Source: a virus. From it: a stretch of DNA of 24,413 nt. A program made the position numbers and the translations under genes. The stretch covers positions 1 to 24,413 of IMG/VR virus record IMGVR_UViG_3300026304_000006. The stretch is one strand, 5' to 3'. Shown one piece after another: positions 883 to 12,563 of this stretch (its first letter is position 1; the number at the start of each line of letters is the position of its first letter). The notes beneath the pieces were generated by a model. It was given only the letters and a program-made list of their open reading frames with translations. It had not been told where the DNA came from and ran no database searches.

Positions 883-1391
883 GCAGGTTCGGGGCGGCTG
901 TCGAGTCTCAGTCCGCGCAGCTGGCCGGCGCGCCGGTCACCACCACGTTCAACGGCTACTTCGCTGCGCTGATCCCCGGCGCATCGGCTGAGCTCAAGTT
1001 GCGCCGCATCCTGTGGCATGTGCGCGGCCCGGCCGGCTCGGTCACGAGCGACCAGCACACGCTGGGGCTGTTCCGGCAGACTGTCCGCGCCGCTACTTCC
1101 GGCTTTACGACGACGACGTTCCAGAACCTGAGTCAGCGCGGCACTGCGTCAGTGTCGACCGGCATCGACATCACCACCGGGCCGACAGCGGGCACCGGCC
1201 CGACGATCGGCGCCAACGCGCTGACCAAGATCGGCGGCAACACCCAGGTCGGCCAGGACGTGCCGTGGGAGTTCCCCGATGACAGCTACAGCGTCGACCA
1301 GGGCACCGCCAACGGCCTCGCGATCGTCAACATCGGCAACGCGCTGCCCGCGTCGCACCTGTTCGTCGTCTCGCCTGAGATCGACGAGTAG
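879..1391 (+). CDS. Probable phage structural protein, 170 aa
   Basis: Not matched to a named family. After about residue 20 the sequence is rich in Thr, Ser, Gly and Val with alternating polar/hydrophobic runs, as expected of a beta-sandwich virion protein (residues 70-130, many Thr and Gly). It has no Cys, no signal peptide and no membrane segment. GTG 879 overlaps the previous stop (GTGA). The next gene, which also has a beta-rich N-terminus, starts 11 nt after its stop, suggesting that the two belong to one virion structure such as a fibre or decoration. This functional grouping is inference from composition and context. Confidence 0.6.
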   Translation: MSRFGAAVESQSAQLAGAPVTTTFNGYFAALIPGASAELKLRRILWHVRGPAGSVTSDQHTLGLFRQTVRAATSGFTTTTFQNLSQRGTASVSTGIDITTGPTAGTGPTIGANALTKIGGNTQVGQDVPWEFPDDSYSVDQGTANGLAIVNIGNALPASHLFVVSPEIDE

Positions 1392-1402
1392 ACGCCTGAG
1401 CC

Positions 1403-3103
1403 GTGGCCGGCGTTACTTCGGTCGGCACGCCGGTATTCACCCGCTCTGCGACGAGTCCGATCACTAGCGTCTGGGGTGCGGGGCAGAACCGGACGGCCGG
1501 GAACCTGCTCGTCGCGGTCGTGTCAGCGATCGCGCAGACATCAGTCACGGCACCGGGTGCCCCGGCAGGCTGGGTTAAGCCGATCTCGGCGACAGCCGGC
1601 ACCCGGTGCTCGCTCGGGATCTTCGTCCGTACTGCGGCCGGCGCAGACGCGGCCCCGTCGTTCAGCTCGACTCTCACGGGCACCGGCGCAATGACTGCCA
1701 CGCTGTTTGAACTGTCGGGGGCAGACGCGACCAACTTCCTGCAGACCCTCGGCACAGCGACCGGGACGACAGCGAACCCGCTGACGGTCACGTCGCAAGC
1801 AGCCGTGGCGCAAGCCGGGAGCTACGCAATCAGCGGCACCGGGCTGGAACTTACTTCGGCGGCCACCGACACTGAGACTCCGGCAGGCGGCTGGTCAGCG
1901 GTCGGTGATGACAGTGCGACGAGCGACGTCGTGCACACGGCAGTCATCGTGCAGTCCGCCCCGGCTGTCGCGTCAGCTCTCGCCGGGTCAGTGACGTGGG
2001 GCGCAGCCGGGAACAGCATTACCGCCGTGCTGGCCGTGTTTCAGCCGGTTGTCGTGCCGGCTGCTGCGCGCCCTGCTCGCCGTGTCGCCGCCGTCCGGTA
2101 CCGCCCCCGCGTTGCCGGCGTGCCCGGCGCCGGGTTCACCCCGGCTGCCGCCGCGCCGGCGAAGCCGCAGCCCCGGCAGAACGTGGCACGGGCAGCTACC
2201 GCCGCACGGCAGCAGCGCCGCCCGCCGGCTCCCGCTTTCCCGCTCGCTGAGACGTTCCAGCCGCTGCCCGCCATCCAGCCGGCCCGCCCCCGCCGGCCGC
2301 CAGGGCCAGGGCGCCGCCGCCCGCAGGCCGCCCTGCCGCCCGCCCAGACCCCCGCCGTGCAGCCCGCGAGGCGCCGCCTGCTGCCGCTCGTGCGCAGGCG
2401 CCCCGCCGCTCCGGTGCCGCCCGCGGTGGCGGTAGCTGCCGCAGCACCTGGCGTGACGCCGTGGCAGCGGTACCGGCGGGCACTGGCCAGGCCGCTCACC
2501 CGGCAGGCCACCGCGCCGCCGCCGCCCCAGGTGCTCGCGGCAGCCGTGCCTGCCGTGCCCGTGCAGCCGCGTGCCCGGCGCGTCATCTGGCGCCGCGCGG
2601 CCAGGGTGCCCGGGCCGGCCGCGGCGGCAGTCCCGGCGATCGCTGCCCAGCCGCGCCGCAAGCTGGCGCTGCCGGCCAGGCGCCGGCCAGCGACCGCAGC
2701 TCCGCAGCCGGCTGTGCCAGCCCCGGGGGCCCGCCGTCCGGCGCGGTCGCTGCCGCTGCGAAGCCGCCGCGCAGCCGCCTTCTCGCCGCCGTTCGTGCCG
2801 CCAGCGGCAGCGGCTCCGGCGAAGCCGGGACTGCGCCTGCGCTCACGTCTCGCCGGGCTGTTCACCAGGTTCCGGCGCGCCGCGGTGCCGCCTCCGGCTC
2901 CTGCCCTGCCGCCGCCAGCCGCGGCCCTGGCAGGCCAGGTGAGCGCCGGATCGCCGCATAGCCGCTGGCAGTCCGGCCCGGTGCACGACCGCTACGCCGC
3001 GGGCGACCCGCACGACCGCGGCTGGGAGGCCGGCCCGCCAGGGTCGCGTTACTCTACGGGTAGCCCGCATGGCACCGACCAGGCCGGCCCGCCGCACCGC
3101 TGA
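1403..3103 (+). CDS. Modular repeat virion protein: beta domain, Arg/Pro/Ala stalk, 9-residue repeats
   Basis: 566 aa. Residues 1-213 are Thr/Ser/Ala/Gly-rich and beta-like, resembling the sandwich modules of actinophage fibre or surface proteins (family memory, not a search). Residues about 214-512 are almost only Pro, Ala, Arg, Val, Leu, with about seven degenerate units of 26-36 residues, each an Arg cluster (as in QPARRRLLPLVRRRP or QPRRKLALPARRRP) followed by a Pro/Ala spacer. Residues 514-566 hold six units of about nine residues of the form xAGxPHxRW/Y. No Cys and no signal peptide are seen. GTG 1403 lies 11 nt after the previous stop. The stalk is very basic and could bind DNA or the acidic cell surface, or be an extended linker. 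Function unknown. The frame is trusted because both ends are ordered and a GAGGAGG-led gene follows. Confidence 0.75.
   Translation: MAGVTSVGTPVFTRSATSPITSVWGAGQNRTAGNLLVAVVSAIAQTSVTAPGAPAGWVKPISATAGTRCSLGIFVRTAAGADAAPSFSSTLTGTGAMTATLFELSGADATNFLQTLGTATGTTANPLTVTSQAAVAQAGSYAISGTGLELTSAATDTETPAGGWSAVGDDSATSDVVHTAVIVQSAPAVASALAGSVTWGAAGNSITAVLAVFQPVVVPAAARPARRVAAVRYRPRVAGVPGAGFTPAAAAPAKPQPRQNVARAATAARQQRRPPAPAFPLAETFQPLPAIQPARPRRPPGPGRRRPQAALPPAQTPAVQPARRRLLPLVRRRPAAPVPPAVAVAAAAPGVTPWQRYRRALARPLTRQATAPPPPQVLAAAVPAVPVQPRARRVIWRRAARVPGPAAAAVPAIAAQPRRKLALPARRRPATAAPQPAVPAPGARRPARSLPLRSRRAAAFSPPFVPPAAAAPAKPGLRLRSRLAGLFTRFRRAAVPPPAPALPPPAAALAGQVSAGSPHSRWQSGPVHDRYAAGDPHDRGWEAGPPGSRYSTGSPHGTDQAGPPHR
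2041..2940 (+). repeat. Degenerate Arg-cluster/Pro-Ala protein repeats
   Basis: This stretch encodes residues 214-512 of the 566-aa protein. About seven units alternate an Arg-rich block with a Pro/Ala spacer. The Arg blocks include RRLLPLVRRR, WQRYRRALARP, RARRVIWRRAAR, RRKLALPARRR, RRPARSLPLRSRR and LRSRLAGLFTRFRR. Units vary from 26 to 36 residues, so this is protein-level repetition rather than a recent DNA duplication. Confidence 0.65.
2942..3100 (+). repeat. Six tandem 9-residue repeats (xAGxPHxRW/Y)
   Basis: Residues 514-566 divide cleanly into SAGSPHSRW, QSGPVHDRY, AAGDPHDRGW, EAGPPGSRY, STGSPHGTD and QAGPPHR. Gly at position 3 is invariant, Pro at 4 or 5 nearly so, and an aromatic residue ends four of the units. 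One unit carries a one-residue insertion and the last is truncated by the stop. The periodicity suggests a beta-repeat or fibrous tip. Confidence 0.75.
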
Positions 3104-3115
3104 GGAGGCCTCCCG

Positions 3116-3424
3116 ATGATGCAGCTCGCCTCGTCCCTGGCCTACCTGTTCGTGCCGCTCTACGGCCCCAAGGGCACCGACCTGACGCAATACGCAGTGG
3201 ACCTGGCGCTGATCACCGACGCGGGCGCCGAGCCCTCGAGCGGCGACTGGCACGCCGCGACCTGGCTGTCCCCCGACGGCATCAAGCCGAAGGAGGCGGC
3301 CCTGCTGATCGGCCCGGCCGCCCAGGTGTACGCCTCCGGCGAGTACATGTGCTACGCCCGGATCACCGCCGGCGCCGAGAAGCCGGTACTCCCGAGCGGG
3401 AGAGTCCGCATCGGCGCGGGATGA
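3116..3424 (+). CDS. Small structural-type protein, 102 aa
   Basis: Not named with certainty. It starts at ATG 3116, seven bases after a strong GAGGAGG (3102-3108); a second ATG follows at once. The pattern DLTQYAVDLALI, then GDWHAATWL, AALLIGP and GEYMCYARIT, ending in a short Val/Gly/Arg stretch, resembles the small Ig-like or baseplate-upper-protein-like beta domains often encoded near structural genes of actinophages (family-level memory only). The gene ends 14 nt before the small terminase gene and shares its orientation. The likely role is a virion surface, fibre-attachment or neck component. No enzyme motif is seen. Confidence 0.65.
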   Translation: MMQLASSLAYLFVPLYGPKGTDLTQYAVDLALITDAGAEPSSGDWHAATWLSPDGIKPKEAALLIGPAAQVYASGEYMCYARITAGAEKPVLPSGRVRIGAG

Positions 3425-3438
3425 CCTGACGAACACCC

Positions 3439-4011
3439 ATGGCCACGCGAACCCGAGGCCCGAATGGCGCCTACCGGCGGTCACTGAAGACTGCCGCCCG
3501 TGACCGCCGTGCCGCCGACCTTTACGGCCAGGGCTGGTCCTACCAGCGGATCGCCGACGAGCTCAGGTTCGCTTCCCGCGGCCATGCCCACGACGCGGTC
3601 CACCGTGCCTTCGCCGACCTGCCCGCCGAGGGCGCCGACCTGGGCCGCAGCATCGATCTTGACCGGATCGACCGGCTGATCGAGCAGGCCTGGGCCGTGA
3701 TGCTGCGCCCCCACGTCGCGCATTCGGGCGGCAGCATCGTCCGCCGCCAGGCCGGCTGGGAGCGCGATAGCAGCGGCGAGATCGTCTTCGACGGCGAAGG
3801 CGCCCCGATCCCGGTCTACGAGGAACTCGCTGATGACGGGCCGGTGCTGGCCGCGATCGACCGCATCCGGGCGCTGCTGGAGCGCCGCGCGAAGACGATC
3901 GGCTACGACGCCCCGGCCCGGTCGCGTATCGAGGTCATCACCGCGGAGATGGTGGAGGCGGAGATAGCCCGGCTGGAGGCCGAGCATGGTGACGATCCAG
4001 GCACCCCCTGA
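3439..4011 (+). CDS. terS: Small terminase subunit (putative)
   Basis: 190 aa. The N-terminal 20 residues are basic. Residues about 22-60 form a helix-turn-helix (AADLYGQGWSYQRIADEL), the DNA-recognition fold expected of TerS. The middle (65-140) is helical with an acidic insert, and residues 140-185 are long charged helices suited to ring assembly. The main support is position: the gene overlaps terL by 26 nt (3986-4011), the usual TerS-TerL order. TerS recognises the packaging site and loads the concatemer onto the large subunit. No Shine-Dalgarno is clear at ATG 3439. A general HTH regulator is the alternative, less likely here. Confidence 0.75.
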   Translation: MATRTRGPNGAYRRSLKTAARDRRAADLYGQGWSYQRIADELRFASRGHAHDAVHRAFADLPAEGADLGRSIDLDRIDRLIEQAWAVMLRPHVAHSGGSIVRRQAGWERDSSGEIVFDGEGAPIPVYEELADDGPVLAAIDRIRALLERRAKTIGYDAPARSRIEVITAEMVEAEIARLEAEHGDDPGTP

Positions 4012-5569
4012 CCGGCTCCGCCACCTGCGCGACCTGCAACGGCGCCGGGCAGAGCGCAGGAAGCAGGACTATCCCTCGCCGCTGGCGCTCGCCGCCGCGC
4101 TCGACCCCGCCACGAAGAGCAGCCCGGCGCTCCGCCTGATCGATGACGCGCTCGTGGACCTGATGGCAGACGACTCACCGCACAATGCCCTGGCCGTCCT
4201 GGTTCCCGCTCAGGAGGGAAAGAGCACGATATGTTCCCGGCGGCTCCCCGAATGGGTGCTGCATATTGACCAGTCAGCGCAGATCGCGGTCATCTCCTAC
4301 CAGGCCGACATCGCGATCCGGTGGGGCCGGGAGATCAAGCGCGACGTGGCCCTGGCCGAGGGCAGGCTGAACGTCACCATCCGCCAGGACTCGAGCGCCG
4401 CCGCGCGGTGGGACACCCCGGAGGGCGGCGGCGTGTACTGCACGGGCGTCGGCGGGCCGCTGACCGGCCGCTCGGTGGGCCGGCTGATGGTGATCGATGA
4501 CCCGGTGAAGGACCGCGCCGACGCCGAGTCCGCGACGATCCGCGAGTCGGCGTGGTCCTGGTGGGAGTCGGTGGCGCTGACCCGGCTCGGCCCCCGCTCC
4601 CGCGTGGTACTGATCATGACAAGATTTCACGAGGACGACCTGGCCGGCCGCATCCTGAGCAGGCCAGGCCCGCTGCACTGGCGGGTGCTGAAGATCCCCG
4701 CCATCGCCGAGGATGGCGACGAGCTGGGCCGCCCGCCGGGCGAGGAGCTCGAGTCGGTGCGCGGCCGGGCGCCCGGCTACTTCGCGAACCTGCGGGCCGG
4801 GATGAGCCCGTACGTGTTCAGCGGCATGTACCAGCAGAACCCGGTGGCGCCGGAAGGCAACTTCTTCCGCCGCTCGGCCTTCCGGTACTGGCGGCACGCC
4901 GAGCCGTGGCAGGACGGCCGGGAGCGGATCGCGTGCGAGGGCCAGCTGGTGACGATGGCGGACTGCTGGACGTTCGGCACCGTCGACGTGGCCGCCAGCA
5001 CGAGGACCACCGCCGACTGGACAGTGGTGTCGGCGTGGGCGGTGTCGGTGGAGGGCGACCTGATCCTGCTCGACCGCGCCCGGGCGCGCGTCCAGCAGCA
5101 TGACCACTTCAGGATCGCTGACCCGCTGATCCGGCGCTGGGGCCTGGGCGTGCTGTACGTGGAGCACGGCTTCTTCGCGTCCACGCTGGTGAAGGACGCC
5201 CGCGACGCCGGGTACCCGGTGGCCGAGCTGCGCGCCGACACCGACAAGATCACCCGCGCCATCCCGGCCGCCGGGCGGGTGCACGCCGGGCGGGTCTGGT
5301 TCCCCGCCGAGGCGCCGTGGCTGGACGAGTGGACCGATGAGCTGGCGGCGTTCCCGAACGGAGCCCACGACGACCAGGTAGACACCCTGTCCTACGCGGC
5401 GCTGGTGGTGACGAACCAGTGGGCGAAGGCGCCGGACCCGCCGCGGGAGGGCCTGTCGCCGCACGAGCGCGCCATCGCCGCCGCCTACGCGAGCGCGACG
5501 GGCAGCGCGGGCAACGGGCAGCACTCGGACGGCACGGGCCAGCTGGACATCATGAACCTGGACTACTGA
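3986..5569 (+). CDS. terL: Terminase large subunit
   Basis: 527 aa. This is the DNA-packaging ATPase and nuclease that docks on the portal. The ATPase part shows a deviant Walker A, VPAQEGKST (73-81), a Walker B, LMVIDD (167-172), and a coupling motif, MTRFHEDD (211-218). The RNase-H-like nuclease shows GTVD (Asp334), YVEH (Glu393) and HDDQVD (Asp462/463/466), a complete acidic set. Length is normal for the family. ATG 3986 lies six bases after GGAGG (3975-3979) inside the terS end. The 3' end is not followed by the portal gene as usual but by an island with its own promoter-like elements. The protein looks intact and functional. Confidence 0.95.
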   Translation: MVTIQAPPDRLRHLRDLQRRRAERRKQDYPSPLALAAALDPATKSSPALRLIDDALVDLMADDSPHNALAVLVPAQEGKSTICSRRLPEWVLHIDQSAQIAVISYQADIAIRWGREIKRDVALAEGRLNVTIRQDSSAAARWDTPEGGGVYCTGVGGPLTGRSVGRLMVIDDPVKDRADAESATIRESAWSWWESVALTRLGPRSRVVLIMTRFHEDDLAGRILSRPGPLHWRVLKIPAIAEDGDELGRPPGEELESVRGRAPGYFANLRAGMSPYVFSGMYQQNPVAPEGNFFRRSAFRYWRHAEPWQDGRERIACEGQLVTMADCWTFGTVDVAASTRTTADWTVVSAWAVSVEGDLILLDRARARVQQHDHFRIADPLIRRWGLGVLYVEHGFFASTLVKDARDAGYPVAELRADTDKITRAIPAAGRVHAGRVWFPAEAPWLDEWTDELAAFPNGAHDDQVDTLSYAALVVTNQWAKAPDPPREGLSPHERAIAAAYASATGSAGNGQHSDGTGQLDIMNLDY

Positions 5570-5570
5570 G

Positions 5571-5632
5571 TGTGGTACCCCTACCGGCGCAGAGGGCTAG
5601 GCTGTGTGGTACCCATACACGGAGGTACCACA
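5571..5632 (+). promoter_or_regulatory. Promoter/operator with three TGTGGTACC elements
   Basis: Just after the terL stop lies TGTGGTACC at 5571-5579, again at 5605-5613, and inverted as GGTACCACA at 5624-5632. The last two form a perfect 9-bp inverted repeat with a 10-nt spacer. A -10-like TAGGCT is at 5598-5603, so copy 1 would sit near the -35 region and copies 2 and 3 over the start point and leader. A GGAGG Shine-Dalgarno (5621-5625) lies against and partly within the third element. This is what an autoregulated promoter looks like. The ribbon-helix-helix protein encoded at 5888 is the natural candidate to bind it (inference). Confidence 0.6.
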
Positions 5633-5650
5633 ATGGCAGTGGCCCGGTGA
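5633..5650 (+). CDS. Five-codon leader ORF (MAVAR)
   Basis: ATG 5633 is preceded at seven bases by GGAGG (5621-5625), a near-ideal ribosome site, yet the frame ends after five codons at TGA 5648-5650. That stop overlaps the ATG of the next gene (5650) as TGATG. The following gene has no Shine-Dalgarno of its own, so this minigene probably delivers ribosomes to it. An alternative is that a base was lost or gained and the true gene originally began at 5633. Confidence 0.4.
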   Translation: MAVAR

Positions 5651-5895
5651 TGCAGCCGGCCGCCTACTGGATCGAAGCGGCCAAGCGCGCCTACGTCCTG
5701 ACCGGGGACCGCAGGGCGCTGAGCTACGCCGATCAGTTCGTGGAGGCTGAGGCAGCCAGCCCGGACAGCCTGATCGACAGTCTCGATATCCCTCACTGGC
5801 TGCGAGACATCTGGTTTGACCGGCTCGGCTTCGTAGGCCAGGACCAGGGCGGCATGTGGGGCTGGTCGCCATGGCATGAGCCCGTCCATGGGTAA
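5650..5895 (+). CDS. Trp-rich small protein of the terL-portal island, 81 aa
   Basis: Not recognised. It is acidic with six Trp in 81 residues, three of them in a C-terminal cluster (GGMWGWSPWHEP). The first half is helical (AAYWIEAAKRAYVL, ALSYADQFVEAEAA). There is no Cys and no membrane segment. The start is ATG 5650, coupled to a five-codon leader ORF by TGATG; GTG 5647 is directly before it. Its 3' end overlaps the next gene by 8 nt if that gene starts at 5888. It is the first full gene behind the GGTACC promoter region, so it is expressed with the ribbon-helix-helix gene. Unknown function, possibly a moron product. Confidence 0.65.
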   Translation: MQPAAYWIEAAKRAYVLTGDRRALSYADQFVEAEAASPDSLIDSLDIPHWLRDIWFDRLGFVGQDQGGMWGWSPWHEPVHG

Positions 5896-6199
5896 GCGCA
5901 CGAGCGTCTACCTGACAGACGCGCAGACGGCATCCCTTGCGGCGCTCGGCACGACGATGGCCGAGGTGGTCCGCGCGGGGTTCGCGGCGCTGGAGCAGCC
6001 GGCCGGACCGTTCGGCATTCCGGTGAGGGCCGACTCCCGCATGCCCGATGGCTTCGCCGCGATCGTCGCGCCCGGGAACGAGCCAGCGGTATTCAAGCTG
6101 CCCGAGCTGAAGCCCGGCCTGTACCCGTGCTGCTCGCACTGCACCCACCCGCCGACGGTCAGCGGCCACGGCCGCAGGTGCCTGCAGTGCCCGGCATGA
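5888..6199 (+). CDS. Ribbon-helix-helix protein with C-terminal zinc motif
   Basis: 103 aa from ATG 5888; an in-frame ATG 5876 would add four residues. Residues 3-35 have the layout of a ribbon-helix-helix DNA-binding domain: strand KRTSVYLT, helix DAQTASLAAL, turn with GTT, helix MAEVVRAGFAAL. Residues 36-78 are a Pro/Gly-rich linker. Residues 82-101 carry CSHC and CLQC pairs spaced like a zinc ribbon. RHH proteins usually dimerise, bind short repeated operators and repress their own promoter. The palindromic GGTACC elements at 5571-5632 are the likely target (inference). Overlap with the previous stop (5893-5895) implies co-translation. It could also be the antitoxin-like half of a pair, but no toxin is evident. 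Confidence 0.75.
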   Translation: MGKRTSVYLTDAQTASLAALGTTMAEVVRAGFAALEQPAGPFGIPVRADSRMPDGFAAIVAPGNEPAVFKLPELKPGLYPCCSHCTHPPTVSGHGRRCLQCPA

Positions 6200-6212
6200 G
6201 AGCGGCGAGGGC

Positions 6213-6713
6213 ATGGGCAACACGCTGACCGAGAACGAAAAGCGCACCGTCCGCGCGATCATGGCAGCCACGCGCTGCCCCCGCTGCCGGAGCGAACTGG
6301 ACGGCGAGGGCCGCAACGTGTGGCTCTTCTGCGCCCGGCATGGCTGCGGCGCGACCACTAAGGCTGGCACGCGATGCCGTAACTCGGCCACCTACCCGGA
6401 GGTGCGCCGCTGTGGCATTCATCTCCACGGCACCGGACGGAGGACGGCTGACCCGCTGCCGGTCACCGAATACGCCATCGAGATGTCAGGCGGCAGCATG
6501 CAGGTCCGCAACGACGCGCCCGAGGTTGAGGCGGTCTATCCGCTCGATGACTGGCTCGGCCTTCAGCTCTGGCAGGGCTCGCACGTCTGGCGGCGCAAGG
6601 TCGTCGTCACCCAGGAGTGGGAGCGGGTCACGCTGGCTGATCTGGACGCGACGGCGCGCGCCGTCTATGACGAGCAGTCCGCGCGCTTTGGCGGCGTCCC
6701 GCGCCACCGCTAG
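6213..6713 (+). CDS. Zinc-motif protein (DUF5763-like), 166 aa
   Basis: The N-terminal half carries two metal motifs. The first is CPRC (22-25) with later Cys 40 and 45, a zinc-ribbon layout. The second is a Cys-9-Cys-11-Cys-2-His pattern (Cys45, Cys55, Cys67, His70) including TTKAGTRCRN and RCGIH, which resembles the DUF5763-type zinc domain of actinobacterial phages and restriction-linked proteins (recalled, not searched). Residues 78-166 form a separate alpha/beta part with no known motif. ATG 6213 follows GGCGAGG at only two bases, a weak start. The gene ends in CTAG, which also supplies the stop of the opposing gene. A DNA- or RNA-binding role is plausible but unproven. Confidence 0.7.
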   Translation: MGNTLTENEKRTVRAIMAATRCPRCRSELDGEGRNVWLFCARHGCGATTKAGTRCRNSATYPEVRRCGIHLHGTGRRTADPLPVTEYAIEMSGGSMQVRNDAPEVEAVYPLDDWLGLQLWQGSHVWRRKVVVTQEWERVTLADLDATARAVYDEQSARFGGVPRHR

Positions 6714-6895
6714 GGCTTGTCGATGCCGCGCGCATCCACGCCAGCCTGATGCTCAGCCGGCGGCACCGGCTCCATGAACTGGTCGATCACCCAGCCGACG
6801 ACCCGGGAGCGGGTCCGGGGCGGCAGGGCGGTCATGATCCGCTCGATGCCGCTCATCGCGTCGATCTCCTGCCGCAGCGCTTCAGACCTGGCCAC
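6710..6895 (-). CDS. Small antisense-strand protein, 61 aa
   Basis: Encoded against the surrounding genes. From GTG 6895 (a TTG at 6901 is possible) it reads as a helical protein with IERIMTALPPRTRSRVVGWV at residues 18-37. This resembles the PLDPxxRxRVLxWVxDRF helical segment often seen in short actinobacterial proteins. AGGGGG (6902-6907 on this strand) precedes GTG by six bases. Its TAG (6710-6712) and the TAG of the converging 6213 gene (6711-6713) use the same CTAG palindrome. The gene lies 26 nt downstream of another antisense gene and behind a copy of a 25-bp repeat. The role is unknown, possibly regulatory. Confidence 0.65.
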   Translation of the reverse strand: MARSEALRQEIDAMSGIERIMTALPPRTRSRVVGWVIDQFMEPVPPAEHQAGVDARGIDKP

Positions 6896-6900
6896 TGGCA

Positions 6901-6925
6901 ACCCCCTCGCTGTAACGGCTGTTAG
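6901..6925 (-). repeat. 25-bp intergenic repeat, copy 1
   Basis: On the plus strand this is ACCCCCT, three variable bases, then TGTAACGGCTGTTAG. It contains the dyad TAAC-GGCT-GTTA. Read on the minus strand it supplies the stop of the 59-aa gene (TAA at 6922-6924) and the AGGGGG ribosome site of the 61-aa gene. Copy 2 is at 7118-7142. The pair differs at one position outside the three-base variable segment. Confidence 0.75.
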
Positions 6926-7101
6926 ACCGCCACACTAGGCGCGTCCTCAACCTCGATGGCCAGCATCTTGTAGCCATGCTCGGAAGCGGCCATCTCCACG
7001 GCGCGCTGCTGGCTGAACGTTGCCAGGACAAGCCGTTCGCATGCGTCGCCAGCGGTGTCCTGGCCAGTGAGGCGCACAACCTGGTAAATCACCACGTTCA
7101 C
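6922..7101 (-). CDS. Small antisense-strand protein, 59 aa
   Basis: Translation of the minus strand from GTG 7101 gives a compact alpha/beta protein beginning MNVVIYQVVRLTG. A helical centre (TFSQQRAVEMAASEHGY) and a final strand (KMLAIEVED) follow. The frame has good third-position GC, and its sequence is ordered, unlike the competing frame. GTG 7101 overlaps a four-codon minigene (GTGGCAACGTCGTGA, 7112-7098) that itself sits six bases after AGGGGG. The gene is short enough to be missed by length-filtered gene finders. It is followed at 26 nt by the 61-aa gene, forming a two-gene antisense unit. Function unknown. Confidence 0.65.
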   Translation of the reverse strand: MNVVIYQVVRLTGQDTAGDACERLVLATFSQQRAVEMAASEHGYKMLAIEVEDAPSVAV

Positions 7102-7112
7102 GACGTTGCCAC
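7098..7112 (-). CDS. Four-codon leader ORF (MATS)
   Basis: GTG GCA ACG TCG TGA on the minus strand, six bases after AGGGGG. Its stop overlaps the GTG start of the 59-aa gene (GTGA). The layout parallels the leader ORF at 5633 and would couple translation to the 59-aa gene. It may equally be a chance short frame, since GTG 7101 could be reached directly. Confidence 0.3.
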   Translation of the reverse strand: MATS

Positions 7113-7117
7113 CTGTT

Positions 7118-7142
7118 ACCCCCTGGATGTCACGGCTGTTAG
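7118..7142 (-). repeat. 25-bp intergenic repeat, copy 2
   Basis: On the plus strand ACCCCCT, three variable bases, then TGTCACGGCTGTTAG, matching copy 1 at 6901-6925 except one base. On the minus strand it lies directly upstream of the 59-aa gene, with AGGGGG as the ribosome site. A weaker third copy of the core (TAACGGGTG) is at 7153-7161. The dyad centre suggests protein binding, and the position over the ribosome site allows translational control. Confidence 0.7.
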
Positions 7143-7196
7143 GACTGGACTCTAACGGGTGAGCGCTGACATGGCGTAGGGTTGCCGCTAGCGGGC
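7143..7196. other. Divergent intergenic gap before portal
   Basis: This short gap separates the antisense gene pair from the portal gene. It holds the TAACGGGTG core (7153-7161) and a weak -10-like TAGGGT (7177-7182), with no convincing -35 or Shine-Dalgarno for the portal start. It is the only place where a divergent promoter pair could lie. I cannot define one with confidence. Confidence 0.35.
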
Positions 7197-9395
7197 ATGC
7201 GGCGCCGATCAGACCGCGCGGGGGGCGTTCAGTTCAGCGCGGAGGTGCCTGCCATCGTTGCATCGGCGCCCGCGCCCCCGACGCGTGACATCGGCACCCC
7301 GGACTACTACTGGGGAACGTGGGGCCAGGGCCTCCTCTCGGAGTGGTGGGAGACCAGCGCCGACCTGATCTGGCCGACCTCGGTCATCACGTACGGCAAG
7401 ATGCGGCACGACCCCCAAATTAAGGCCGTCCTGTCGGCGTTCATCCACCCGATGCTCCGGGCCACGTGGGCGGTCGACGGCGAGGGCTGCGACCCGAAGA
7501 TCACCCGGCATGTCGCCGATGACCTGGGCCTGCCGATCCAGGGCGTGGACGAGCACCCTGGCCCCGCGAGACGCCGCGGCATCACGTGGCACCGGCACCT
7601 GCGGGCCGCCGCGCAGAAACTGATCTTCGGCCACTCGCTCTTCGAGCGCCGCTACGAGCTCGACGAGACCGCCGGCCTGTACCATCTCGCCTCCCTCGGC
7701 CCGCGGATGCCGTGGACCCTCGCCAACATCCACCTGAACCATGACGGCTCGGTCATGGAGGTCCGGCAGACCACCCAGGAGCAGCCGATCCCGGGTGAGC
7801 GGCTCGTCTGGTACGCGCACGAGATGGAAGGCTCCCAGTGGGCGGGGATCTCGATGCTCCGCCCGGCGTTCGGCGCGTGGCTGCTGAAGCACGAGACGTG
7901 GCGGGTGCACGCCACGTCGATCCGGCGGTTCGGGATGGGCGTGCCGACGGTGGAGACGCCGCCGGGCGCGACGCAGGCGCAGGTCACCCAGGCCCAGGCG
8001 CTCGCCTCGGCGATCCGGGCGGGCGACCAGACGGGGGCGGGCATCCCGGCCGGCTTCAAGTTCGGCCTGTCCGGCATGACCGGCTCGGTGCCGGACGCGC
8101 TGGCGTTCATCAAGTACCTCGACCAGCAGATGTCCAAGATGTGCCTGGCCGGGATCGTCGACCTGGGCCAGACCGAGATCGGCTCCCGCGCGCTCGGCGA
8201 GTCGTTCCTGGACCTGTTCGTGCTCGCCTTGCAGGGCCTGGCCGACGAGATCGCCACCGAGACCACCTCGGGCTACCCGGGCATGCCGGGCGCCGTGACG
8301 GACCTGGTGACCGTCAACTGGGGCGAGGACGAGCCGTGCCCGCGGGTCGTCTGCCCGGACATCGGCCAGGAGCACGAGCCGACGGCGCAGGCCCTGATGT
8401 GGCTGATGCAGTTCGGCGCGATCACCGCCGACCCGGAGCTCGAGGCGTACATCCGGCAGGCGTGGCGGCTGCCGCAGCGCAAGACGCCGCAGCCCGCGAT
8501 CCTGCCGAAGCCGCCCGGCCAGCCAGGAACGGCACCGGGTGCGCCGGGCGTGCCCGCACCCACGCCCGCGGCGGGACGCCCGCTCCGGCACCTGCGGGCA
8601 CGGGGAGCGCTGCCGCGCGCGGCCGTTCCCGGCACGCTGCGCCGCAAGCTCACCGCCGCCGAGGTCCGCGCCGGCTTCGACCCGGTGACGCTGCAATCGG
8701 ACTGGCAGGCCGAGCTGGACTGGCTGCTCGCGCAGTGGACGCCCGTGTTCCGCGCCCAGCGCGACAGCCTCGTCGACCAGGTCATCGCGCAGGCGGACAG
8801 CCCGGTCAGGCTGTCCGGGCTGAAGGTCGACAGCAAGCCGGGCGCGCAGCTGCTGGCTGATGCGATGGCGACCGCGGCGGATAAGGCGAAGGCCGGCATG
8901 ATCGCCGAGGCGCAGCACCAGGGCGTCACCGTCTCCGACTCGAAGGCCAAGATCAGCGCCTCGTGGCTCGGCAAGGTAGCTGCGGCTGCCGCGGCGATGG
9001 CCGGCGGGTACGTGGCCGCGCAGGCCGCGAAGTTCGCGCTGCAAGTGGCGGGCGCCATCCCGGCCGCTGACGCCGGTGACTTCGTGGCGGTCCACCTGGA
9101 CGGGCTCAGCCAGCGCAGCCTCCGCGACCAGCTCGGCGCCGCCCTGTCCGCCGCGCAGAACGCGGGCCGGCTCGCCGTGCTCGAGGCGGCGCCGGAGAGC
9201 GCCGGGCAGGCCGAGTACATCGCGACCGAGCTGCTCGACGACAATACGTGCGAGCACTGCACCGCGATCGACGGCACCGTGTTCCGGTCGCTGGACGAGG
9301 CGGAGGCCGCCTACCCGAACGGCGGCTACATCGAGTGCGAGGGCTTCGACCGCTGCCGCGGCACCGTCATGGGCATCTGGGGCGGCGAGCTCTGA
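7197..9395 (+). CDS. Portal protein fused to MuF-like minor head protein
   Basis: 732 aa from ATG 7197; TTG 7182 would add five. Residues about 25-425 match a DUF935/Mu gp29-like portal in layout: KMRHDPQIKAVLSA, HRHLRAAAQKLIFGHSLFE, and a long central helix around SKMCLAGIVDLG. The portal forms the dodecameric vertex ring and packaging channel. A Pro/Ala linker (about 428-480) joins a C-terminal region of helices (500-660) ending in DDNTCEHCTAIDG (Cys685 and Cys688), then CEGFDRCRG, the cysteine signature of MuF/gpF minor head proteins. In Mu and many phages these are two genes. The stop overlaps the protease start (TGATG). No frameshift is seen at the joint, so the fusion looks genuine. Confidence 0.85.
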   Translation: MRRRSDRAGGVQFSAEVPAIVASAPAPPTRDIGTPDYYWGTWGQGLLSEWWETSADLIWPTSVITYGKMRHDPQIKAVLSAFIHPMLRATWAVDGEGCDPKITRHVADDLGLPIQGVDEHPGPARRRGITWHRHLRAAAQKLIFGHSLFERRYELDETAGLYHLASLGPRMPWTLANIHLNHDGSVMEVRQTTQEQPIPGERLVWYAHEMEGSQWAGISMLRPAFGAWLLKHETWRVHATSIRRFGMGVPTVETPPGATQAQVTQAQALASAIRAGDQTGAGIPAGFKFGLSGMTGSVPDALAFIKYLDQQMSKMCLAGIVDLGQTEIGSRALGESFLDLFVLALQGLADEIATETTSGYPGMPGAVTDLVTVNWGEDEPCPRVVCPDIGQEHEPTAQALMWLMQFGAITADPELEAYIRQAWRLPQRKTPQPAILPKPPGQPGTAPGAPGVPAPTPAAGRPLRHLRARGALPRAAVPGTLRRKLTAAEVRAGFDPVTLQSDWQAELDWLLAQWTPVFRAQRDSLVDQVIAQADSPVRLSGLKVDSKPGAQLLADAMATAADKAKAGMIAEAQHQGVTVSDSKAKISASWLGKVAAAAAAMAGGYVAAQAAKFALQVAGAIPAADAGDFVAVHLDGLSQRSLRDQLGAALSAAQNAGRLAVLEAAPESAGQAEYIATELLDDNTCEHCTAIDGTVFRSLDEAEAAYPNGGYIECEGFDRCRGTVMGIWGGEL

Positions 9396-11200
9396 TGGCC
9401 GAGATGCCCGCGCTCGCGACGGTTCCTGATGTCGACCTGGTCGCGGCCGGCACGTGGAACCTGTCGACGGGCGAGGCCACCTTCACGGCCGAGGATCTGG
9501 CGGCGGCGGTGGAGGCCAGCCAGTGCCCCGCCATCGGCACCCCGGTCATCAAGCTCGGTCACACCGACCCGCGGTTCGACGGCGAGCCCGCCGTGGGCCG
9601 GGTCGCGAACATGGCGCTGGCCGCCGAGGGGACCAAGATCACCGGGGATCTGGCAGGGATGCCGGGCTGGCTGGGGCCGGTCATGACCTCGGCGTACCCG
9701 AACCGCTCGATCGAGGGCGCCTGGGACTTCCAGTGCCAGATCGGCCACGTGCACCCGTTCGTGATCACGGCGCTGGCGCTGCTCGGCACGTCGATGCCGG
9801 GCGTGGGCGTTCTGTCCAGCCTGGCCGATGTGGCCGCCCTGTACGGCGTGGCGGCGAAGAGCGCACCTGAGGGCACGCCGCGCGAGTCGTGGCGGCTGAA
9901 CATCTCCGGAGGAGCCATGCCAGGAACGGTGCTCGCGGCCGGTGTCACGACCGAGGACGTGCGGCGCGCCTACTACGACAGCTCATCGACGCCGTACAGC
10001 TACTGGATCACCGAGATGCAGATGGACCCGCCGCAGCTCATCGTGAGCGACGAGGCCACCTCCAAGGTGTACCGGGTGCCGGTGACGATCAAGGGCGCCG
10101 ACATCACCTTCGGCGATCAGCAGGAGGTGGAGGTCGAGTACGTCGACGTGAAGGCCGCGGCGGCGCGGATGAAGGCCGGGAAGGTGGCGGCGGCGTGGGC
10201 GTCGGCCGCCTCGAGCCGCGAGGGCGTGCCCCGCAAGGCGGCGTGGGACCACCGGGCCACGGCCGGGCGGCTGGCCAGGCTCCGCATCGCGCGGGCCGCC
10301 ATCGCCAGCGACACCGACGCCGACGAGAACGTGCAGAAGCTGCTCGCCAGCCTCGACGCCACCCTGGATGAGGCCAGCGAGCTGGGCGCCGGCATCGACC
10401 GCACCACCGTGTCCGAGGAAGCCGCCCAGGCGCTCGACCTGATCACCGCGGCGGAGGCGCTCGCCGACCAGCTGATGGAGCTCCTCGGCGTCTACGACCC
10501 GGATGACGCAGCGGCGGGCGGGCCGCACGGCAGCTACACCGGCACGCACTCCCACCCGCACGCGGCGCTCGGCTCGCAGGCCGGCGACATGTCCCACGAC
10601 CATTCGCACGCCCACGCGGGGGATGCGAAGCACAACCACGCCCACGCAGGCGCGGGTTCGAAGAGCAAGGCCAAGACGAAGGGCACCGGCCCGGGAAGAA
10701 AGGGAGGCTCCGACGTGGAGTTCACCGATGAGCAGAAGGCGGCCCTCCGCGCGCAACTGGGCCTGGCCGAGGACGCCGAGCTGGACGAGGCCGCCATCGC
10801 GGCGGGCGTCGCGGCGCTGGCGGACAAGAACGCGACCGCGATGGCGGCGGCCTCGCGCAAGCTGCCGAGCGGCGTGATCGCCGTGGAGCAGGAGGCGTGG
10901 GACAACATGAACAAGCGGGTCCAGGCCGGCGAGGCCGCCCGCGCCGCGCAGCTGCGCGACCAGCGCGACACCGTCATCCAGGCCGCCGTCCGCGACGGCA
11001 AGCTCAGCCCGGCCCGGCGCAAGCACTGGGAGCGGCTGTGGGACGCCGACCCCGACGGCACCCGCGAGGTGCTGGCGGGGCTGGCCAAAAATGTAGTCCC
11101 GGTCGACGACATCGGCTCGGCGGGCGGCTCGGTCAGCGACGAGCTGCTCGACGAGGAGTATCGGAGTTTGTTTCCTCCATCCTTCCCGGCCAAGAGCTGA
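9395..11200 (+). CDS. Head maturation protease and scaffold, Mu gpI-like
   Basis: 601 aa from ATG 9395, which overlaps the portal stop. Residues 1-145 resemble the Mu-I prohead protease: CPAIGTPVIKLGH with His56, a GxV strand, then YPNRSIEG with Ser105, the likely catalytic pair. Residues 175-260 form a beta module (WITEMQMDPPQLIVSDE, YRVPVTIKG) seen in actinophage relatives. Residues 270-370 are helical. Residues 376-419 carry 11 His. From residue 441 comes an acidic, Ala-rich helical scaffold that ends LDEEYRSLFPP. The protease trims scaffold and capsid precursors after assembly. Two in-frame internal starts have Shine-Dalgarnos (GTG 10715, strong; ATG 9917, weaker), so a separate scaffold product is likely. 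The window's only endonuclease gene follows at 10 nt. Confidence 0.85.
   Translation: MAEMPALATVPDVDLVAAGTWNLSTGEATFTAEDLAAAVEASQCPAIGTPVIKLGHTDPRFDGEPAVGRVANMALAAEGTKITGDLAGMPGWLGPVMTSAYPNRSIEGAWDFQCQIGHVHPFVITALALLGTSMPGVGVLSSLADVAALYGVAAKSAPEGTPRESWRLNISGGAMPGTVLAAGVTTEDVRRAYYDSSSTPYSYWITEMQMDPPQLIVSDEATSKVYRVPVTIKGADITFGDQQEVEVEYVDVKAAAARMKAGKVAAAWASAASSREGVPRKAAWDHRATAGRLARLRIARAAIASDTDADENVQKLLASLDATLDEASELGAGIDRTTVSEEAAQALDLITAAEALADQLMELLGVYDPDDAAAGGPHGSYTGTHSHPHAALGSQAGDMSHDHSHAHAGDAKHNHAHAGAGSKSKAKTKGTGPGRKGGSDVEFTDEQKAALRAQLGLAEDAELDEAAIAAGVAALADKNATAMAAASRKLPSGVIAVEQEAWDNMNKRVQAGEAARAAQLRDQRDTVIQAAVRDGKLSPARRKHWERLWDADPDGTREVLAGLAKNVVPVDDIGSAGGSVSDELLDEEYRSLFPPSFPAKS
9908..9919 (+). 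promoter_or_regulatory. Possible internal ribosome site in protease gene
   Basis: GGAGGAG (9908-9914) precedes an in-frame ATG (9917-9919) at residue 175, at the boundary between the protease domain and the beta module. Spacing from GGAGG is four bases, rather short. It could drive a protein lacking the protease domain, but is weaker evidence than the site at 10699. Confidence 0.3.
10520..10651 (+). repeat. His-rich linker in protease-scaffold
   Basis: Encodes 11 His in 44 residues (376-419), in clusters such as THSHPH, SHDHSHAH and KHNHAH. It sits between the helical part and the scaffold start. This composition could bind metal ions, but in this family it is probably a flexible low-complexity link. 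Confidence 0.7.
10715..11200 (+). CDS. Nested in-frame scaffold protein (internal start)
   Basis: 161 aa, the C-terminal part of the protease gene read from its own start. AAAGGGAGG (10699-10707) lies seven bases before an in-frame GTG. The same nine-base site, seven-base spacing and GTG start are used by the connector gene at 14377, which is strong internal support. The product starts MEFTDEQKAALRAQLGL and is acidic, helical and Ala-rich, ending with a short aromatic tail suited to capsid binding. Known parallels are lambda C/Nu3 and Mu I/Z, where an in-frame internal start makes the scaffold. It would organise the capsid precursor in the procapsid and be removed by the protease. Confidence 0.65.
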   Translation: MEFTDEQKAALRAQLGLAEDAELDEAAIAAGVAALADKNATAMAAASRKLPSGVIAVEQEAWDNMNKRVQAGEAARAAQLRDQRDTVIQAAVRDGKLSPARRKHWERLWDADPDGTREVLAGLAKNVVPVDDIGSAGGSVSDELLDEEYRSLFPPSFPAKS

Positions 11201-11210
11201 GCCCTGACCG

Positions 11211-11690
11211 ATGGCGGAGATCATGCTACAAGGCAAGGCGGCGAACGGGCGCGTCGTCCTGGTGGACGATGCGGATGTCCCGCTCCTCTGCCACTTCCGC
11301 TGGCGGGTCGGTAGCCACGGCTACGCGGTCACCAAGGTTCCGACCGGGAAGCGCGGCGGGCGCACGGTGCTGATGCACCGGCTGCTCACCGGCTACCGGA
11401 TGACCGATCATGTCAGCCGGGACAAGCTCGACAATCGCAGGGAGAACCTGCGCGAGGCGGGCGGCCAGCCGATGAACCAGGGCAACCGGGTGAAGTCGGC
11501 GGTGCCGTGCTCCAGCCGGTTCAAGGGCGTCTTCCTGTACCGGCGCACCGGCCGCTGGATGGCGGCCTGCGCGAAGGAGCACCTCGGCTATTTCGCCGAT
11601 GAGGAACAGGCGGCGCGTGCCTATGACGCGGCAGCCATCAGGCGCTTCGGCGAGTTCGCGCGTCTCAATTTCCCTGGGGCGGTGACCTGA
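11211..11690 (+). CDS. HNH homing endonuclease with AP2 DNA-binding domain
   Basis: 159 aa. The N-terminus (residues 5-40) has the strand pattern of HNH_3-type phage endonucleases (GRVVLVDDADVPLL, then GYAV). The nuclease core lies at 55-92: MHRLL (His56), TDHVS (Asp66-His67), LDNRREN (Asn75, Asn79) and MNQGN. An AP2-like DNA-binding domain follows at 101-155 (SSRFKGV, RWMAAC, GYFADEEQAARAYD, FGEFARLNFP). These free-standing selfish endonucleases nick a related allele and spread by gene conversion. No Shine-Dalgarno precedes ATG 11211. ATG 11223 with GGCGGAG nearby is an alternative. It sits between the scaffold and decoration genes on the same strand with 10- and 3-nt gaps, so it is read in the capsid transcript. 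It appears intact. Confidence 0.9.
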   Translation: MAEIMLQGKAANGRVVLVDDADVPLLCHFRWRVGSHGYAVTKVPTGKRGGRTVLMHRLLTGYRMTDHVSRDKLDNRRENLREAGGQPMNQGNRVKSAVPCSSRFKGVFLYRRTGRWMAACAKEHLGYFADEEQAARAYDAAAIRRFGEFARLNFPGAVT

Positions 11691-11693
11691 GCC

Positions 11694-12140
11694 ATGGCCG
11701 ACTACACCCCGGTTTACCTGACCGGCAGGCAGCTCACCCTGACCTGCTCGGTGGCGTGCGTCGGCGGGGACGTGCTGGAGGTCTCCGGCTCGGGCACGGT
11801 GCGGCCGGTCGTCCCATCCGCCACCCCGTCGGCGAAGGTCATCGGCATCGCCGGGGACGACACCCCGGTCAACGGCCGGGTCACGGTGTACGGCTTCGGG
11901 CCGGTGCATGAGTCAGTCGCCGACGGCACCATCACCGCCGGGGACCAGCTCACCACCGCACTGAACGCGGGGAAGCAGGTCAAGACGCTGCCGCCGTCCT
12001 CGACGCCCGCCACCGAGCCTGCCGTGTATGCGGCGGCCTCGACGGTGCTGGACATCAACAACACCCGGTCGATCATCGGCATCGCGCTGACGACGGTGGC
12101 CGACAACCTCAAGGTCCGCTGGATGCAGTTCCCGGGCTGA
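11694..12140 (+). CDS. Head decoration/cement protein, DUF2190-like, copy 1
   Basis: 148 aa. Begins MADYTPV and has the repeating beta pattern of the DUF2190 cement proteins of actinophages: GDVLEVSGSGTV, VIGIAGDD, GRVTVYGFGPV, ITAGDQLTTALNAGKQVKTL, and an ending with SIIGIALTTVADN and VRWMQFPG. Such proteins bind the outside of the mature capsid and stabilise it. The start is three nt after the endonuclease stop. The same seven first residues open the next gene, so the two are paralogues. This copy is 16 residues longer and has extra sequence around residues 100-125. Confidence 0.85.
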   Translation: MADYTPVYLTGRQLTLTCSVACVGGDVLEVSGSGTVRPVVPSATPSAKVIGIAGDDTPVNGRVTVYGFGPVHESVADGTITAGDQLTTALNAGKQVKTLPPSSTPATEPAVYAAASTVLDINNTRSIIGIALTTVADNLKVRWMQFPG

Positions 12141-12164
12141 GGCCCGCAGAAGGAGGCCCAGGAA

Positions 12165-12563
12165 ATGGCTGACTACACACCCGTAAGCAGCGTCAACTAC
12201 GCGACGTTCACTTCTACCGCGTCCGCCACGATCACGGGCGGCCAGCTCCTCACCGCCTCGGGCAACAACACGGTCGCGCCGTCCACCACGGGCGATCACT
12301 CGGTGGGCGTGGCGCTGCATGACGCGCCGTCGGGCGGCCGGGTCACGGTGGCGATGGTGTCGTCCGTCGTCCATGAGGTCGCCATCCAGAACACGATCGT
12401 CATCGCCGCCGGGGCGCCGATCATCGCGGGTACGGCCGGGTCGGTGAACACCGGCACCCTGGCGACCGTCGCCGGGGCGGGCACCCTGCTCGGCGTCTGC
12501 CTGGCCGGCGGCACCGGCAACGCGGGCCTGACCGTCAAGGCACGGTTCATCGGGATCGGCTAG
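12165..12563 (+). CDS. Head decoration/cement protein, DUF2190-like, copy 2
   Basis: 132 aa. It shares the MADYTPV start and the domain order of the preceding gene: TITGGQLLTASGNNTV, SVGVALHDAPSGGRVTV, VVHEV, then TLLGVCLAGGT and VKARFIG. Identity to copy 1 is modest by eye, so the duplication is old. AGAAGGAGG (12147-12155) is nine bases before ATG 12165, a good ribosome site that copy 1 lacks, suggesting higher expression of copy 2. Product role: capsid cement. Both copies may be used at different capsomer sites, or one may be replaced by the other during evolution. The major capsid gene follows after a 45-nt gap. Confidence 0.85.
   Translation: MADYTPVSSVNYATFTSTASATITGGQLLTASGNNTVAPSTTGDHSVGVALHDAPSGGRVTVAMVSSVVHEVAIQNTIVIAAGAPIIAGTAGSVNTGTLATVAGAGTLLGVCLAGGTGNAGLTVKARFIGIG

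Follow-up and report, generated by a model that had tools for sequence, protein, structure and literature searches.

The junction between the genes for the terminase large subunit (TerL) and the portal protein is a variable accessory slot, lying outside the packaging module, in actinophage-like soil viruses. For the phage analyzed here, we put at roughly two chances in three the reading that this slot carries a g1-g2-g3 operon autoregulated by g2, and that the operators and the DNA-reading half of g2 are one exchangeable specificity module.

The stretch analyzed, hereafter the window, is a complete 24.4-kb IMG/VR record, a tailed-phage fragment with a GC content of 71%. Alongside TerL and a Mu-type portal it encodes a head maturation protease, a major head protein, a tape measure protein, and tail proteins.

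A variable slot between TerL and portal

By comparison with the relative L007, the portal gene most likely starts at the GTG codon at 7245; with that start the TerL-portal interval is 5570-7244 (1.68 kb). It contains five small genes, g1 to g3 rightward and g5 and g4 leftward (Table 1), all of which look coding: on the strands given in the preliminary description, their GC content is raised at third codon positions, as it is in genuine genes of GC-rich genomes. A second assembly, L005, agrees with the window over 6348 nt, the sole difference being one N outside the interval. The layout described earlier, in which five small genes split TerL from the portal, is real, and the L005 sequence agrees with it. 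Also borne out were a Trp-rich protein (g1, with 6 Trp), a ribbon-helix-helix (RHH)/zinc protein (g2, with an RHH-like N terminus and a Cys/His C terminus), a zinc-motif protein (g3, with Cys/His pairs), and two opposite-strand small genes with repeat leaders.

Table 1. Features of the TerL-portal interval and its borders (GC3 and GC2, GC content at third and second codon positions)
Feature	Position	Strand	Remarks
TerL	3986..5569	+	Terminase_6N/6C (Pfam), PHROG_38 E 1e-83; left slot border
Operator copy 1, TGTGGTACC	5571..5579	+	Exact 9-mer; begins 1 nt past TerL stop
Putative -10, TAGGCT (TANNNT type)	5598..5603	+	From sequence; GGGCTAGGnTGTG context also in L006
Operator copy 2, TGTGGTACC	5605..5613	+	Exact 9-mer; near expected transcription start
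Operator copy 3, inverted TGTGGTACC	5624..5632	-	Exact 9-mer; ends right before ATG 5633
5-codon ORF, MAVAR-stop	5633..5650	+	Good Shine-Dalgarno GGAGG 5621-5625; overlaps g1 ATG 5650; identical in L005
g1	5650..5895	+	81 aa; orphan, without homologue; GC3 0.83, GC2 0.48
g2	5888..6199	+	ATG 5888, or 5876; N terminus MGKRTSVYL; overlaps g1 stop; GC3 0.90, GC2 0.59
Constant C-terminal module of g2, LYPCCSHCTHPPTVSGHGRRC	6119..6181	+	Attached to differing N termini in relatives
g3	6213..6713	+	166 aa; Cys/His-rich N terminus; C terminus resembles a protein elsewhere in L014 (E 8e-8, 40%); GC3 0.86, GC2 0.54
g4	6710..6895	-	61 aa; 81% identical in L007; convergent with g3, stops overlapping; GC3 0.89, GC2 0.48
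g4 leader repeat	6885..6925	-	Dyad TAACAGCCGTTA (6913-6924); repeat comparison
g5	6922..7101	-	59 aa; missing in L007, where g4 follows one leader; GC3 0.77, GC2 0.38
g5 leader repeat	7102..7142	-	Dyad TAACAGCCGTGA (7130-7141); repeat comparison
Putative -10 for g5-g4, TAGAGT	7149..7154	-	Near CGTTAG/CTAACAG half-sites; TAGTGT in L007
Mu-type portal	7245..9395	+	Portal_Mu E 1e-39; GTG start; right slot border

TerL and portal relatives were taken from viral contigs, and the TerL-portal distance was measured with profile models. Among about 30 relatives with the same gene pair, the gap ranged from 5 bp (L015) to 4.8 kb (maximum, 4827 bp in L003), with 20 to 120 bp in about 10 others, and the cargo varied. 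The preliminary description had proposed an inserted accessory cassette. This proposal is supported because the relatives do not carry the same five genes: all five occur together only in the identical copy L005, and the insertion is absent from L015, L028, L032, L033, L089, and L095, which have gaps of 5 to 100 bp. Neighbors on the TerL tree mix short and long gaps. The closest relative by TerL is L002 (87%), and the closest by portal are L006 (92%) and L007 (88%); these share the content of the window only in part.

The 41-nt leader repeats of g4 and g5 are 78% identical and contain a TAAC-GTTA dyad. The core palindrome of these repeats, TAACRGCNGTTA, is confined to them within the window, and its count was reached in 0 of 100 shuffles. 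Since L007 lacks g5 and has a single leader before g4, the gain or loss of g5 took place precisely at this repeat.

The slot of L003 holds an AP2/HNH or HNH endonuclease and a glycosyltransferase-like protein; that of L006 holds an AP2/HNH or HNH endonuclease and a secreted-looking protein; and that of L004 holds a GNAT acetyltransferase and a DUF6884 protein. This mixed cargo, which has no common function, the frequency of homing-endonuclease-like genes in the slots of relatives, and a slot GC content near that of the genome (0.68 versus 0.71) all favor a simpler reading, a plain mosaic slot. Under that reading an insertion-tolerant site gathers unrelated genes by illegitimate or homologous recombination, the promoter repeats are ordinary, and g2 is no autoregulator. 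We consider it unlikely in view of the operator data given below.

Several slot contents stand apart. In L092 a DpdA (deazapurine-in-DNA) gene (166-1650) lies immediately upstream of the portal. The slot of L030 encodes a 706-aa protein (1248-3368) with nine treble-clef zinc repeats (PF14311), the C terminus of which resembles by eye a GIY-YIG nuclease (IYLMQRHGEQQIGITGNLKIR), a putative assignment. A 273-aa protein in the L011 slot (11572-12393) begins with a signal-peptide-like N terminus and contains the stretch GEIDAVEGG, which recalls GH16 enzymes; it has no Pfam match. The slot content of L012 is a tRNA-Met (CAT; 9953-10027), and the slot of L016 has a tRNA-like 3' end that ARAGORN did not call. 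Elsewhere in the window, an HNH endonuclease gene (11211-11690) is inserted between the protease and the next head gene. It is missing at that site in L006 and L007, and a 51% identical relative lies, inverted, inside the TerL-portal slot of L006. Judged by these sequence comparisons, it is a moving homing-endonuclease-like gene.

Searches outside the relatives gave little. The window DNA resembled annotated phages only in short parts of TerL (Gordonia, Brevibacterium, Arthrobacter, and other phages), and g1 to g5 had no protein match among them. TerL relatives in bacterial genomes were at most 46% identical, and no portal relatives were found there. A tyrosine recombinase was present in 2 of 18 relative records and a serine recombinase in none. 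The window had no Rfam match and no tRNA.

Operator repeats and the g2 protein

Over its 24 kb, the window has three copies of the 9-mer TGTGGTACC, and all of them are inside 5571-5632, surrounding the TANNNT element. Counted by the motif TGTGGTA, the presumed operator of g2, the number in the window is again three, none of them more than 62 bp past TerL. Aca loci have repeats inside the core promoter, and in the window the repeats lie inside the putative one. When the 70-nt leader alone was shuffled, its repeat content was reached in 21 of 1000 shuffles, which is moderately unusual for the window; the result is only moderate because so short a leader owes its composition to the repeats, and the count over the whole record is the fairer test. 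A TANNNT element and operator repeats are present as possible signs of an own promoter; a consensus sigma-70 scan gave none. For an own terminator there were only weak hairpin/T-run matches, within g3 and on the minus strand.

As a correction to the preliminary description, g1 is without a good Shine-Dalgarno sequence of its own, and the GGAGG at 5621 serves the MAVAR ORF. A sequencing error as the cause of this short ORF was ruled out, as L005 agrees. ORFs of 4 to 5 codons with a better ribosome site precede both g1 (5633-5650) and g5 (7098-7112) and overlap the start of the main gene, and these leader ORFs may serve translational coupling.

g2 consists of an RHH-like half and a CCxxCxH half. 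Its start, MGKRTSVYL, is typical of the pattern seen in RHH strands. For the N-terminal half (39 aa), modeled from five relatives, AlphaFold predicted an extended segment followed by helices at residues 11-19 and 24-36 (pLDDT 92.7), i.e., a strand-helix-helix order with extended residues ahead of the helices; the model of full-length g2 was poor (pLDDT 39.7). The only three PDB matches to the model of the N-terminal half were CopG, CdbA, and VapB, all of them RHH proteins, at weak E values of 6 to 9. RHH_1 was the sole Pfam family touched by this half (1 of 5 members, E 0.043); no match to a curated family was significant, and the assignment falls under every curated threshold. No Pfam helix-turn-helix (HTH) match was found in g2, and no RHH match was found in plasmids. 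We read g2 as most likely a dimeric RHH repressor and presumably an autoregulator. The idea of a special DNA-level constraint on the 63-nt C-terminal module was rejected, since a difference at 1 of 11 fourfold sites, against about 29% in TerL, is not significant.

The operator motif was defined in the window first and then sought at g2-type relatives that had been found by protein search alone. These searches gave three relatives of the RHH-like half, in the unrelated viral contigs L142, L143, and L144; the one in L142 adjoins an integrase, and the one in L144 is surrounded by small genes. In the 100 nt ahead of the start codon, L142 and L143 have two TGTGGTA copies each (Poisson, 3e-6 in either case), and L144 has one copy plus near-variants (Poisson, 4e-3). 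The expectation is 0.002 to 0.004 per 100 nt, and two copies were found at 0 of 1264 background ATGs. The motif thus accompanies g2-type genes in each of four unrelated settings, which fits autoregulation and counts against a plain mosaic slot. The earlier suggestion that the cassette is self-regulated gains support from this conservation of the motif in unrelated phages, although as an inference from sequence. Repeat signals past TerL in L031 and L003 were GC-rich runs or other inverted repeats and were left uncounted.

The RHH gene of L143 (4998-5231), with its two tandem TGTGGTA copies, is opposite in direction to the neighboring tail genes; we take it as a probable second self-regulated island, independent of the first and carried by an unrelated phage. 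Two observations count against the reading preferred here: the RHH and CCxxC parts of L142 are in different frames, and g1 intervenes between operator and g2 in the window only.

Two known kinds of operon resemble the g1-g2-g3 arrangement. One is a toxin-antitoxin operon, with g1 the toxin and g2 an autoregulating RHH antitoxin, which would stabilize the phage or exclude others. The RHH-like regulator, the operator repeats at the promoter, the overlap of g1 and g2, and the toxin-first order known in some families of the HigA/GraA type (PMC9410906) are all in keeping with it. However, g1 matches no toxin or defense family, and it lies between operator and g2 only in the window; in L006, L142, L143, and L144 there is no g1 and the operator leads straight into the RHH gene. 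We regard this reading as very improbable. The same low standing goes to an acr-aca-like operon, in which g1 (or g3) counters host defense and g2 is an Aca-like autorepressor limiting its production. Known loci do have one or more small orphan genes followed by a small DNA-binding repressor, with repeats in the promoter, but the known bacterial Aca families are HTH rather than RHH (PMC9410906), and g1 and g3 have no recognizable homologue. The suggestion of a host-interaction or phage-exclusion role gained no support: none of the five proteins matched a defense family, a PHROG or Pfam family at a meaningful E value, or an annotated phage, and searches of Pfam, PHROGs, and PADLOC with the slot proteins yielded no toxin.

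Apparent exchange of operators and N-terminal half

L002 and L006 are identical over the last 53 nt of TerL, through the stop codon, and again, beginning with the C-terminal module of g2, at 352 of 352 nt. Between these two blocks lie 243 nt that are unrelated (30% gapless identity; 29% when shuffled). There L006 has the repeats GTGTACAC/GTGTACAC/GTGTGCAC and an RHH-like half with a strand reading RRRSVYL. L002 has three copies of TTAGCGTAA and, as its N-terminal half, a C4 zinc-finger-like segment rather than RHH, a point against the model, in which this segment would have to read the TTAGCGTAA sites. Both halves fuse in frame to the same LYPCCSHCTHPPTVSGHGRRC module, ahead of which L007 has yet another sequence. 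Although their sequences differ, the two triple repeats occupy the same place past the TerL stop, a further point against a plain mosaic slot. The equal length of the two 243-nt segments, which have no similarity to each other, looks like coincidence. In 347 genomes of the Nonomuraea order, neither the start pattern of the RHH half nor the TTAGCGTAA tandem was present.

From this comparison, the operators and the presumed DNA-reading half appear to have been exchanged as one unit, with the rest kept. The swap is one pair of metagenomic contigs, with overlaps of 53 nt and about 352-356 nt only, and the main alternative is a chimeric assembly. The in-frame fusion in both contigs makes a chimera less likely. 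The source metagenomes of L002 and L006 also share a phage (L018/L019) at 99.99% over 16 kb, so that two alleles could plausibly exist in populations that are otherwise nearly identical.

We propose that the slot in this phage is made up of two small transcription units that converge. The g1-g2-g3 unit would start from a putative promoter abutting the TerL stop codon, with its three TGTGGTACC copies. A g2 dimer, with the predicted RHH fold, would bind these copies and repress its own operon, holding it low and steady, and this repression would make the operon expressible apart from the late genes. In relatives, the sites and the DNA-reading half would be replaced en bloc, while the C-terminal Cys/His half stays, as does the cargo downstream.

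A bolder version, which we think distinctly doubtful, makes the cassette a miniature immunity-like switch. A resident or coinfecting phage with an identical regulator would repress the newcomer, and escape from this repression would select for en bloc replacement of operator and DNA-reading half, and the constant Cys/His half would be a shared effector. If that were true, the cassette would be a late-region operon of a new kind, serving anti-defense or exclusion and swapping its specificity.

Comparison with known systems

Variable slots in phage genomes have been a repeated source of counterdefense and exclusion genes. The TerL-portal junction gives a precise address for accessory genes, and TGTGGTA is a searchable presumed operator by which small self-regulated operons may be recognized in actinophage-like viruses that lack other annotation. 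The apparent joint change of operator and regulator specificity in near-identical phages makes regulator diversification testable with short fragments.

Moron-like insertions and regions of genomic plasticity are well described, in lambdoid phages and in Mu-like phages of P. aeruginosa (PMC4378225). There, as here, genes that are adjacent in relatives are separated by additional ones, part of which bring their own signals for transcription. In contrast to morons, the slot here has what appear to be two convergent multigene units, a regulator with its own putative operators, and a separately exchanged specificity part. The acr-aca loci (Aca1-Aca10) are autorepressed small operons with HTH regulators (PMC9410906), and the likeness is in the order of a small orphan gene and then a gene for a small DNA-binding protein, with repeats within the promoter. 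The slot regulator is RHH-like rather than HTH and has a Cys/His C-terminal half, and the slot has no known anti-CRISPR.

With CopG, the VapB/RelB-type antitoxins, and CdbA, g2 shares the predicted strand-helix-helix and repeat operators near its own promoter. Unlike them, it is below the family thresholds, is fused to a CCxxCxH module, and has no recognized toxin partner. In lambdoid immunity regions, repressor specificity and operators are replaced together between otherwise similar phages; here the unit is half a gene plus a promoter in the structural region, and a link to lysogeny control is not implied. The start-associated sequences of cluster K mycobacteriophages are repeats directly before several small genes. 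The 41-nt leader repeat, with its TAAC-GTTA dyad and its place as a point of gene gain or loss, is set apart from them by description. This cassette differs from the known ones in its combination of an RHH-like regulator, a Cys/His half, operators abutting the TerL stop, and an apparent en bloc change of specificity.
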